This document shows positions 5,437-9,287 of a DNA stretch of 41,139 nt, one piece after another (within the stretch, counting starts at the first letter, position 1; each line of letters starts with the position of its first letter). Source of the DNA: Pseudomonadota bacterium (GTDB lineage Bacteria > Desulfobacterota > Syntrophorhabdia > Syntrophorhabdales > Syntrophorhabdaceae); the NCBI GenBank assembly GCA_026388255.1, contig JAPLKC010000101.1, forward strand, positions 1 to 41,139. The letters run 5' to 3'. A model generated the notes under the pieces. That model did not search any database and had not been told where the DNA came from. It worked only from the letters and a program-made list of their open reading frames with translations. Position numbers and translations under genes: made by a program.

Positions 5437-5982
5437 TTATTTCGAAGTAGGACTTTTGATTTCTTTTATCTTACCATTCATGGTGCATTCATAGTACTTT
5501 TCAAATGCTTCAGGATTATTGTCTCTTTGTCCCCAAGCTTTAAAATACAAATTATTCTGATTGCGCCATTCAAGAATTTCAAAATAAATCTGATTTTGTC
5601 TAATGAATTTGAATTTATTTGAGGAACGGGCAAATACTTCCTGTATGTGTATGGTTCCATTCGGTCGATCAGGGAAGTAGATTGCAATATCCGTGGTATT
5701 AATGCCATTCCAATCGGTAATAGCCACTGCATTACCGTCGGGAGCCCAGAAAACATCAGCCTTTTGGTCTAAAGCCTGTAATTCTCTCTTCTCCGCAGTG
5801 CGAAGATTTTTCAAAAATAGCCGATGTAACGTGTCTCCTGAAAATGGTTTTTGCAACTCAATTGAATAACGTCCGGTAGGGTCTGTTGAATATTCGGGTC
5901 CTGGAAAACTTACCTTGTCAGCCGAAAAAGCACCTGAGGCAAAAAAAACTAATACCACAATAAAAACTGACATTTTTTTCAT
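5437..5982 (-). CDS. Small exported protein of unknown function
   Basis: This 181-residue protein begins MKKMSVFIVVLVFFASGAFSADK: a short basic N-terminus, a hydrophobic core and an AFSA-type signal peptidase I site near residue 20, so it is probably periplasmic. The rest is beta-rich, with segments like DPTGRYSIELQKP, KADVFWAPDGNAVAITDWNG and NNLYFKAWGQRD that recall single blades of TolB/WD40-like beta-propeller repeats ('WSPDGxxIA'). It is too short to be a whole propeller. No partner genes are adjacent. The function is unknown. Confidence 0.6.
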   Translation of the reverse strand: MKKMSVFIVVLVFFASGAFSADKVSFPGPEYSTDPTGRYSIELQKPFSGDTLHRLFLKNLRTAEKRELQALDQKADVFWAPDGNAVAITDWNGINTTDIAIYFPDRPNGTIHIQEVFARSSNKFKFIRQNQIYFEILEWRNQNNLYFKAWGQRDNNPEAFEKYYECTMNGKIKEIKSPTSK

Positions 5983-6298
5983 ATCACTATCTCCTCAGTA
6001 GGGATTTAAAACTAAGCATCTGCAAGCGGATACCCGGCGGGGCCTCTGAAAGGGCAGTCGCAAGCTTTCCCGCCCTTCTCATAGTCCGATAACCGGGAGT
6101 CTGCGAACATATCCACCATTCATTCCCGCTCACAGAGCGACGCATTCCGGCGTTTTTCGTAAACCTTGTACCCGCTTGCAGGTCGCACCCATAGCTTCTT
6201 TTCAGCCAATCGAATTTGTTACTGAAAAAAACAAAAGGGGCTGGCTGCTATTACTATTTTATTGCCGTTATCGTTTTCTGCCGGCCTGTAACAGGATT
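5983..6298. other. Intergenic stretch with one separated inverted repeat
   Basis: No gene is recognised in these 316 bases. A perfect 10-base inverted repeat occurs at 6020-6029 and 6172-6181, about 140 bases apart. The spacing is large enough that this may be chance or a remnant of an insertion. Confidence 0.3.
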
Positions 6299-6871
6299 TT
6301 ACGGCAGCAGCCGGTAAGGCAGCGCACGCTTTGCCCATTCGCTCTCTTTGTAATCTGTGTTCAGTTTTTCATAAGCCTGCTTCAGCGGTTTTGGATCACG
6401 AGTATGTTTATAGCCGCAGACGCCTCGCAGAAAGACTGCTTCCGGGGCAGACCCGCTTTTTGCAAATCCGGAAATAATTTTTTCAAGATTGTCGAGCGCT
6501 TCAGGAAAACGGTCAAGCTCGTAGCAGGTCTTTGCAACACCAAGCAATACTGATGGAATCAATTCGTCGGAAGGCAAAAAACCGACATTTCTGTGATGTT
6601 CTTTTCCATTTTCATCGATAAAGACAAGCGTGGGCGTCCACTTTATGTTGAAATCGGTCGCATAAGGTTCTGAATCGAAGGGTATTCTAAGCGGAATAAC
6701 ATTCTTTGTAATACATTCTACAACATTGGCGTCAGGATACGTAACTGCATCCATTTGTTGACAGCCGATTCAGCCGGGATTAAAAAAGTCGATCAGGACA
6801 GGCTTTTTTTCGGCTTTTGCGCTTGTCAATGCCATTGAAAAATCGGTTTCCCATTGGATTGTTTTCGACAT
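6299..6871 (-). CDS. Thioredoxin-fold selenoprotein with UxxC motif plus TPR-like tail
   Basis: This is a 190-residue protein if the in-frame TGA at 6770-6772 is read as selenocysteine. The ATG at 6871 has an almost perfect AAAGGAGG site five bases away. Codons 1-33 lead into the thioredoxin strand VLIDFFNPG, then U34-I-G-C37 exactly where thioredoxins have CxxC, and the same frame continues with QQMDAVTYPD, the cis-Pro loop KWTPTLVFID and a helical TPR-like tail (about residues 110-190). A 6-base-pair hairpin follows the UGA at bSECIS distance. A conventional start at the Met codon 6754 would lack the active site and the ribosome-binding site. It is probably a cytoplasmic thiol/selenol oxidoreductase; no signal peptide is seen. 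The partner is unknown. Confidence 0.85.
6735..6772 (-). promoter_or_regulatory. Sec codon and candidate bacterial SECIS hairpin
   Basis: UGA is at 6772-6770. After 17 bases, GGATGC (6752-6747) and GTATCC (6740-6735) form a 6-pair stem around the loop AGTTAC, with a G at loop position 2. The loop starts 23 bases after the UGA, inside the 16-37 base range known for bacterial SECIS elements. I paired it by eye and did not compute an energy. Confidence 0.55.
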
Positions 6872-7009
6872 AATAACCTCCTTTAAGTTTTTTATATTAT
6901 AGGCATGATTTCCAGAAATAGGAAGATGCGTTTATTTACCATAGGAGCAGCGATAATTTTTTTAGGATGACGAAGCCAACGATGATAGCGCTTTGATTTG
7001 GGATTGGAA

Positions 7010-7915
7010 TTATTTCAGGAACAACGACAGCACTTCGGGCTTATCAAAAAGTCTGAGAAATGCCCAGGCCGGAGGAGAAAGGTCCTTGCGATTCCTGTAT
7101 CCGATCCCGAATCCCAATGTTGGAGATCCTTCAAGGATACGGACCGGTTTCAATGTGCCTTGCTTAAGCTCCTCCTCTACTGCATCTCTTTCAAAGAAGC
7201 TTACCCCGTTATCCTGTTGTACAAACTCCTTGAGAAGGACAAGGCTTGATGATTCCATTGCAACCAAGGGGATCACCTTAAATTTTCGCAGATATTCAAG
7301 CACGACTTCTCTCACAGCAGAACCTTCTCGTCTCAGAATTAAAGGGATTTCCGATAGTTGCATCACTGAAATTTCCGAGCCTGGCAGGTGGACACTATTC
7401 GGCGAGGCAACGAGAATTACCTCATATTTCCATATGATTTTAACTTTCAGCCTGCTATTATTCGGTTTATATCGGATAACTGCCAGTTCGTTTCGATGAT
7501 CCTCTATGCTTTTAACCATTTCTGCGTTGGATGCCTGGTCAATGATGATCCTGATACCCGGATAGGTTTTCTTAAAAGCTGCAATCAAGGGCATTAGTCG
7601 TTTCAACGGTGTTTCGGGGCACCCTATACGTAATTCTCCCGACTTGCCGGTGGACAAATCCTCGAGAAAACCTTCCAATTCGCGAATCTCTTGAAAAATC
7701 CTGCCTGCCCTTTTGAATACAATCTCTCCGGCATGTGTCAATTGAATAGAGTTTCCGTCCCGGACAAGAAGCCTTATGCCTATTGCTTCCTCAAGTTGTT
7801 TTACCTGCATGGTAATAGCAGGTGGTGTAACCATCAACTCATGGGCGGCCTTTGTAATACTTTTCAATTTTGCAGCAGTATAAAACGCCCTCAACTGGTT
7901 CATATTGAGAATCAT
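7010..7915 (-). CDS. LysR-family transcriptional regulator
   Basis: This is a 301-residue LysR-type regulator. The N-terminal winged helix-turn-helix (about residues 5-65) has LRAFYTAAKLKSITKAAHEL and ITMQVKQLEEAIGIRLLVRDG. The rest is the usual periplasmic-binding-protein-like effector domain (about 95-300). A GAGGGG site lies five bases before the ATG. It is divergent from the UPF0261 gene at 8064 with a 148-base shared control region, the typical LysR arrangement, so it probably controls that gene and its own expression. The effector is unknown, but the RIGCPETPL start of the effector domain is canonical. Similar regulators (CysB/CbbR-like) respond to small metabolites; nothing here picks one. 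Confidence 0.9.
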   Translation of the reverse strand: MILNMNQLRAFYTAAKLKSITKAAHELMVTPPAITMQVKQLEEAIGIRLLVRDGNSIQLTHAGEIVFKRAGRIFQEIRELEGFLEDLSTGKSGELRIGCPETPLKRLMPLIAAFKKTYPGIRIIIDQASNAEMVKSIEDHRNELAVIRYKPNNSRLKVKIIWKYEVILVASPNSVHLPGSEISVMQLSEIPLILRREGSAVREVVLEYLRKFKVIPLVAMESSSLVLLKEFVQQDNGVSFFERDAVEEELKQGTLKPVRILEGSPTLGFGIGYRNRKDLSPPAWAFLRLFDKPEVLSLFLK

Positions 7916-8063: not shown

Positions 8064-9287
8064 ATGAAAAAACAACTTCTCATCATCGCCACGCTTGATA
8101 CAAAAGGCAGGGAAGCCGGTTATGTAAAGGACTGTGTTCTGAAGCTTGGAGTAAACCCTGTTATTATGGATATCGGGGTGGTCGGTGAACCGCAAATCCA
8201 ACCTGACATAACAAATGCAGAAGTCACTGAAGCAGCAGGATATGATCTTAAAGAACTGATAAAGTTGCATGACCGACCCAGGGGCATAATGGCAATACAA
8301 GAGGGTGGCCGCATACTCGCAAACCGGCTGCTGCAGGAAGGAAAGTTGGACGGTGTCATCGGGTTGGGAGGCGGTACAGGCACCTCGGTTACATCCTTCA
8401 TTATGCGATCCCTGCCCTTCGGTCTTCCAAAGATTATTGTCTCTACTATGGCATCAAGGGACGTAAGAGAATATGTGGGAACCAAAGACATTGTTATGTT
8501 TCATTCCGTAGCAGATCTTCTCGGTTTTAATGAGTTCATACGTCTTGTGCTTGATCAGGCATCCCATGCCGTCTGCGGTATGATGAAAGTAGAAAGAAGT
8601 ATTGAACGGCTGAAACCGATTGTAGGGGTCACAGCATATGGACCTACTTCTCATTGTGCAGTTTTGGCCGAGAGTTTGCTGTATGAAAAAGGGTATCAAA
8701 TGATGGGATTTCACACAAACGGCTGCGGCGGTATGGCAATGGAGGAGATGATCGCCGAGGGACTCATAGCCGGGGTCATGGAAATTACCCCCCACGAAAT
8801 TGCCGATGAGATGATGTCAGGTTACTGCAAGGGAATCGGCCCGAGTCGCCTTGAAACGGCTGGAATCATGGGAATCCCCGTAGTGTTTGCCCCTGGTGGC
8901 CTTGATAATGTTGCCTTTGGTCCCTCCTGTCCAATGCCGGAAGAGCTTGCGGGGAGAAATATATACGGCCATGATCACAGGATATGTGTACGTCTGGATT
9001 CATCGGAGATGCAGAAGCTCGCCTCGACCATTGCAGAAAAACTTAATAAAGCGCCTGAATCAACCTATGTCCTTATACCAACAAAGGGCTGGTCGGAAGG
9101 AGACAGAGCAGGTATGCCGCTTTTTGACCTGGCAACCGACCGGATATTTACAGAGAAGCTAAAAAAGCTTTTGAATCCGCAAATCCCGGTCGAAGAGATG
9201 GACGTTCACATAAATGAGTTGTCTTTCGCTCAAAGGGCCGTAGATGTCCTGGATGGAATGATAAAAAAAAGAAGATCCTCAACTTAA
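8064..9287 (+). CDS. Tm-1-like ATP-binding / UPF0261 family protein
   Basis: This 407-residue protein matches the UPF0261 (COG5441) family, whose N-terminal part is the Tm-1-like ATP-binding domain known from the tomato virus-resistance protein and whose C-terminal part is a TIM-barrel-like or related domain. Visible anchors are LLIIATLDTKGREAGYVKD at the start, IGLGGGTGTSVTSFIM at about 93-108, VSTMASRDVREYVGTKDIVM at about 123-142, GVTAYGPTS at about 192-200, and PGGLDNVAFGP at about 277-287. The length is full. An AGGAG site precedes the ATG. The bacterial role is not established; members are found with catabolic genes. The divergent LysR gene suggests a substrate-inducible function. Confidence 0.88.
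   Translation: MKKQLLIIATLDTKGREAGYVKDCVLKLGVNPVIMDIGVVGEPQIQPDITNAEVTEAAGYDLKELIKLHDRPRGIMAIQEGGRILANRLLQEGKLDGVIGLGGGTGTSVTSFIMRSLPFGLPKIIVSTMASRDVREYVGTKDIVMFHSVADLLGFNEFIRLVLDQASHAVCGMMKVERSIERLKPIVGVTAYGPTSHCAVLAESLLYEKGYQMMGFHTNGCGGMAMEEMIAEGLIAGVMEITPHEIADEMMSGYCKGIGPSRLETAGIMGIPVVFAPGGLDNVAFGPSCPMPEELAGRNIYGHDHRICVRLDSSEMQKLASTIAEKLNKAPESTYVLIPTKGWSEGDRAGMPLFDLATDRIFTEKLKKLLNPQIPVEEMDVHINELSFAQRAVDVLDGMIKKRRSST

Follow-up and report, generated by a model that had tools for sequence, protein, structure and literature searches.

Thioredoxin-fold proteins with UxxC or CxxC active sites carry out thiol/disulfide exchange, in which the first residue is the nucleophile and the second cysteine is the resolving one. 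One selenoprotein family of this kind, named 'thiol:disulfide interchange protein', is credited to Kryukov and Gladyshev (2004) and is characterized, in the accessible parts of two papers, by the domain PF13098, a UxxC motif and the accession WP_011366075.1 (PMC9312934, PMC13188914). In the accessible part of a further paper, the family is reported for S. aciditrophicus, G. metallireducens and G. uraniumreducens (PMC1794560). A thioredoxin domain combined with TPR repeats is known from the chaperedoxin CnoX, as the available text of two papers describes it (PMC6282202, PMC8129009).

Here we describe a gene from a member of the Syntrophorhabdaceae (assembly GCA_026388255.1). It lies in a stretch of 41,139 nucleotides of contig JAPLKC010000101.1, which was analyzed as a whole and is referred to below as the window. 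Three lines of evidence read from sequence, namely conservation, covariation and a decoding machinery in the genome, indicate that residue 34 of the predicted thioredoxin-fold product is very probably selenocysteine.

A Single In-Frame TGA at the Active Site

In the window, an ATG at 6871 on the minus strand, with AAAGGAGG directly 5' of it, opens a frame that contains a TGA at 6772-6770 and terminates with TAA at 6299 (Table 1). When TGA is translated as U, the product has 190 residues and reads MSKTIQWETDFSMALTSAKAEKKPVLIDFFNPG-U34-IG-C37-QQM..., with the active site in the context FFNPG-U34-IG-C37. The frame continues for 156 codons 3' of the TGA and includes the cis-Pro motif WTPT at residues 78-81. 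A standard ORF call yields a protein of 151 aa that starts at the ATG at 6754 and is missing the active site. A first-pass annotation of this DNA had proposed an in-frame TGA in place of the first redox cysteine, a strong ribosome-binding site ahead of the frame, a 156-codon continuation with a cis-Pro TPT motif, and loss of the active site in ordinary annotation from 6754. We recovered each of these features at the coordinates and in the frame proposed, and can add that the gene is on the minus strand, as the strand had not been given.

Table 1. Features of the predicted selenoprotein gene, with positions in the window
Feature	Position	Strand	Basis
Predicted selenoprotein gene (thioredoxin domain and TPR-like tail), 190 aa, TAA included	6299..6871	minus	Translation with TGA as U; full-length orthologues
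Shine-Dalgarno region, AAAGGAGGT then TATT-ATG	6876..6884	minus	Sequence and orthologue upstream regions
TGA, predicted selenocysteine 34, first residue of UxxC	6770..6772	minus	TGA in 129/130 aligned loci, TGC in one; Cys in Sec-losing lineages
TGT, Cys37, putative resolving cysteine of UIGC	6761..6763	minus	Invariant in 24/24 aligned orthologues
bSECIS-like hairpin GGATGC-AGTTAC-GTATCC, apical loop 23 nt past TGA	6735..6752	minus	RNAalifold; pair counts; 102 distinct sites with compensatory changes
Thioredoxin-fold domain, residues 1-105	6557..6871	minus	PF13098, PF13899 and PF00085 over cut-off; AlphaFold pLDDT 96.4; DsbD-gamma and relatives at Z 12-13.6
TPR-type helical tail, residues about 101-190	6302..6571	minus	Model helices; PF13174 TPR_6; BamD/YbgF matches

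Across 60 related genomes, we identified 22 full-length orthologues (42-71% identity), all of which contain a single in-frame TGA, and a further one that lacks the TGA. Given that the TGA recurs once per orthologue, always in the same alignment column and with conserved residues on either side, it is not a chance occurrence. Nearly all orthologues have an AGGAGG-type site shortly 5' of the start. Their starts precede the TGA, so that the possibility, raised beforehand, of homologues that all begin after the TGA falls away. In a wider search the gene was found in 84 of 395 genomes of the phylum, about a fifth. A search of GTDB contigs with the part of the protein downstream of the TGA returned 192 loci, 80 of which were kept; by the records' own names, these derive from Deltaproteobacteria, Geobacter, Nitrospirota, Brocadia/Jettenia (Brocadia-type Planctomycetota) and others. 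Overall, 129 of 130 extracted loci have TGA as the aligned codon and the remaining one has TGC, and, as some genes were fetched twice, the distinct TGA sites number 102.

Could the TGA be an ordinary stop codon or a sequencing error, the true protein starting at the ATG at 6754 and consisting of 151 aa without an active site? This is what the standard ORF caller returns. However, the same TGA occurs at 102 distinct sites in records of several phyla, a strong ribosome-binding site stands ahead of the 33 conserved residues 5' of it, and Cys stands in for it in lineages that lost Sec at this position. We thus regard a stop or error as extremely improbable and retain the reading of a selenocysteine codon.

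A Conserved Hairpin 3' of the TGA

According to the accessible text of PMC13188914, the bSECIS rule calls for a stem of at least 4 pairs, a loop of 3-9 nt with G in one of its first two positions, a distance of 16-37 nt from the UGA and an MFE of at most -7.5 kcal/mol. The window hairpin (GGAUGC-AGUUAC-GUAUCC) has six pairs, begins 17 nt after the UGA, and has its loop at 23 nt with G in the second loop position. Its core stem alone reaches -6.4 kcal/mol against the -7.5 of the rule, with which it agrees in all remaining respects; folded with its flanks, the hairpin region reaches -15 kcal/mol.

Across the family, the rule is satisfied at 77 of the 102 distinct sites; when the same proteins were recoded synonymously, it was satisfied in 118 of 2040 recodings (5.8%). 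RNAalifold predicted a single hairpin from 23 sequences, with columns 24-29 paired with 36-41, and in a register test over the 102 sites 92% of cells were paired in register versus 22-71% when the register was slid. At stem position 22/35, A-U (88 sites) is replaced by G-C (10 sites), a change that keeps the pair. Position 23/34 is U-A in 95 sites and A-U in 5, which likewise preserves the pair and always accompanies a Tyr-to-Phe change. The Thr/Ser/Ala codon in the stem ends in G at 102/102 sites. An Rfam search of the window gave no match. The hairpin of bSECIS geometry that had been claimed 3' of the UGA is confirmed in its geometry and is backed by covariation in the family, with the qualification that the core stem in the window falls short of the energy threshold.

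Selenocysteine Machinery and Natural Controls

The source genome encodes selB (a 640-aa open frame, 373 bits), selA (573 bits) and a tRNA-Sec with anticodon TCA (74 bits, in agreement with ARAGORN). It also encodes selD (contig C36, 16706-17620), which has its own in-frame TGA at the catalytic residue (GAG-U-ASK); thus, an independent gene implies use of selenocysteine in the source organism. A check for selA, selB, selC and selD had been suggested with the original proposal, and all four are present. As a separate observation, the selenoprotein gene and selA are on the same contig, ~3 to 7 kb apart, in several Geobacteraceae (G426, G319, G422, G456, G457).

A suppressor or an altered genetic code could instead insert a different amino acid (Trp or Cys) at the TGA; the frame would then be open, and nothing further speaks for this. 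Each gene has just one TGA, always in the same redox column, intact CxxC sites have Cys there instead, and a bSECIS hairpin, tRNA-Sec and SelB are all present. We give this possibility almost no weight and continue to read the codon as selenocysteine.

Lineages without the TGA serve as natural controls, and it is in these that we found the homologues with Cys in the CxxC column for which a search had been recommended. In one genome (G320), which has neither selA nor selB, the codon is TGC and the hairpin is gone; the TGA, selA and selB are all found in its congener G391. No in-frame stops were found in any of the searched genomes of a Geomonas-like genus (Geobacteraceae), and in the four of these genomes that we read, as well as in one of a neighboring genus, TGC or TGT stands in place of the TGA, the hairpin sequence has been lost and selA is retained. 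Members of family f59 have decayed sites (CEGS, CQSS and others), and some of them are without selA and selB. Altogether, both genes are missing in four of the genomes with a Cys or decayed site. A strict coupling of the Cys form to the loss of selA was considered and ruled out, as selA is still present alongside a Cys or decayed site in G058, G159, G256, G353, G388 and the Geomonas-like genus. In a tree of 124 sequences (a quick tree with long branches), well-supported branches force at least four changes between Sec and non-Sec forms.

Three genomes are exceptions in the opposite direction. The draft genome G033 has the TGA, and neither selA nor a true selB was found in it; G027 and G466 have the TGA and selB, with no selA found. 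These gaps likely reflect incomplete, fragmented assemblies. With Sec, Cys and decayed sites in sister lineages, the family lends itself well to asking why selenium is kept at a thioredoxin-type site in some anaerobes.

In f59, one or two copies are kept (L177-L184) that combine decayed active sites (CEGS, CQSS or none) with a conserved TPR-like tail. Conservation of the tail despite the decayed site hints at a role without redox chemistry.

Gene Neighborhood

Beyond lineage-specific neighbors, no conserved neighbor of the gene was detected, the largest cluster consisting of response regulators at scattered positions. Positions 5900-7200, when scanned for promoters and terminators, gave no more hits than shuffled sequences. 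Just upstream in the window, on the minus strand, is a LysR regulator (7010-7915). Of the NCBIfam models, the one for selenium-metabolism LysR proteins matches it best; we rejected this assignment, as the score is 153 bits against a cut-off of 250. A UPF0261 family protein (8064-9287, plus strand) is the divergent neighbor of the LysR gene.

Fold, Tail and Putative Function

The AlphaFold model of the protein has a mean pLDDT of 96.4. PF13098 matches with 51.8 bits against a cut-off of 27, PF13899 and PF00085 are likewise over their cut-offs, and the nearest structures to residues 1-105 are 3f9u, 2kuc and DsbD-gamma (Z 12-13.6). Residues 101-190 form TPR-type helices in the model and are structurally near BamD and YbgF; TPR_6 (PF13174) was found in 23 of 24 members, with E up to 0.1. 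No signal peptide was apparent when the N-terminus was read by eye, and the protein should thus be cytosolic. The first-pass annotation had described a TPR-like tail and taken it to suggest a specific partner. The tail is corroborated by the model and the profiles; the gene neighborhoods give no backing to a specific partner.

The hidden selenoprotein with a UxxC thioredoxin fold, as originally proposed, is thus supported: CxxC homologues and the sel genes were found, and the starts lie before the TGA. During synthesis, the hairpin would direct SelB and Sec-tRNA(Sec) to decode codon 34 (UGA). According to the profiles and the model, the product consists of a thioredoxin domain of DsbD-gamma type, with U-I-G-C as its active site, and a short TPR-type tail fused to it. 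We suggest a putative function as a Sec-dependent thiol/disulfide reductase, for which we consider the chances about even. In such an enzyme, Sec34 would attack a disulfide or related oxidized thiol, Cys37 would resolve the selenylsulfide, and a thioredoxin-reductase-type partner could then re-reduce the active site, while the helical tail might dock a client or carrier.

An alternative function is suggested by CnoX/YbbN, in which a thioredoxin domain is likewise followed by TPR-type helices in the same two-domain order. The window protein could act as such a chaperedoxin, holding clients and passing them to a chaperone, with Sec in place of Cys. Consistent with this, YbbN structures (3qou, 3qdn) are the third and sixth Foldseek matches, with alignments covering both domains, and copies with decayed active sites retain the tail. 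However, the domain arrangement in the predicted model differs from that of YbbN (rmsd 11-12, TM 0.42-0.44), the tail is much shorter (~90 residues, the YbbN chain being 282 long), the active site is UIGC, and the thioredoxin part is closer to DsbD-gamma and the tail closer to BamD/YbgF. We thus consider CnoX-like action unlikely. The more specific proposal of a Sec-based CnoX counterpart, whose selenol site and TPR arm would rescue and hand over oxidized clients in anaerobes, seems quite improbable to us; if true, the role would be one that we did not find described for any bacterial selenoprotein in the accessible text of the literature searched. The reductase remains our working proposal.

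Comparison with Described Families

The DsbD C-terminal (gamma) domain (1uc7, 2fwh) is one of the closest thioredoxin-fold structures, at Z 12-13, and the NCBIfam models of the DsbD and TsoB C-terminal domains match the window protein. Unlike DsbD-gamma, the window protein is not part of a membrane protein, has Sec for the first Cys and carries an extra helical tail. The selenoproteins TsoB (NF045694) and VPGUxxT (NF041382/NF041383) have a related thioredoxin-fold region, whereas their architecture and motif are different, and the window protein reaches 54.7 bits where the cut-off is 805 and 32.4 bits where it is 275, respectively. In NCBIfam release 20, no model is over cut-off for the window family.

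A second thioredoxin-like UxxC protein with one in-frame TGA (YFYSRY-U-GY-C) was encountered in two of the related genomes (L173 in G016, contig C114; G007, contig C181, 3702-3989). It is apparently exported and is a selenoprotein candidate in its own right.

The closest described system is the 'thiol:disulfide interchange protein' family. Both families have PF13098, one Sec and a UxxC motif, and Syntrophus aciditrophicus, Geobacter metallireducens and G. uraniireducens belong to groups in or near the range of the window family. Compared by description, we know of no difference; the TPR-type tail is unmentioned in the accessible descriptions. One related genome is presumably that of G. uraniireducens Rf4 (Geotalea uraniireducens). 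In it, the window family alone gives a TGA-bearing PF13098 match over cut-off, and by this elimination the window family is very probably the published one. The published name could instead belong to another UxxC selenoprotein, which would leave the window family undescribed: the published tables, as far as accessible, give PF13098, UxxC and an accession only, further TGA-bearing thioredoxin-like proteins exist (L173, L168), and NCBIfam has no dedicated model over cut-off. Against this stands the sole match over cut-off in the presumed Geotalea uraniireducens genome. A second TGA-bearing PF13098 match there is below cut-off, with profile scores in the range seen for the UPHC thioredoxins that we read in related genomes, and the 2006 table, in its accessible part, gives both names for G. 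uraniireducens (PMC1794560). We thus hold a separate, undescribed family to be rather unlikely.

Whether this subfamily had been described was left open in the first-pass annotation; judging from the accessible parts of the literature, it very probably has been (PMC1794560, PMC9312934, PMC13188914). As NCBIfam has no dedicated model, records of the family may often be truncated. The window gene is thus very probably an added member of a predicted selenoprotein family that has been listed for two decades, occurs in about one fifth of the phylum's sampled genomes, and has its gene cut at the active site by a standard ORF call.
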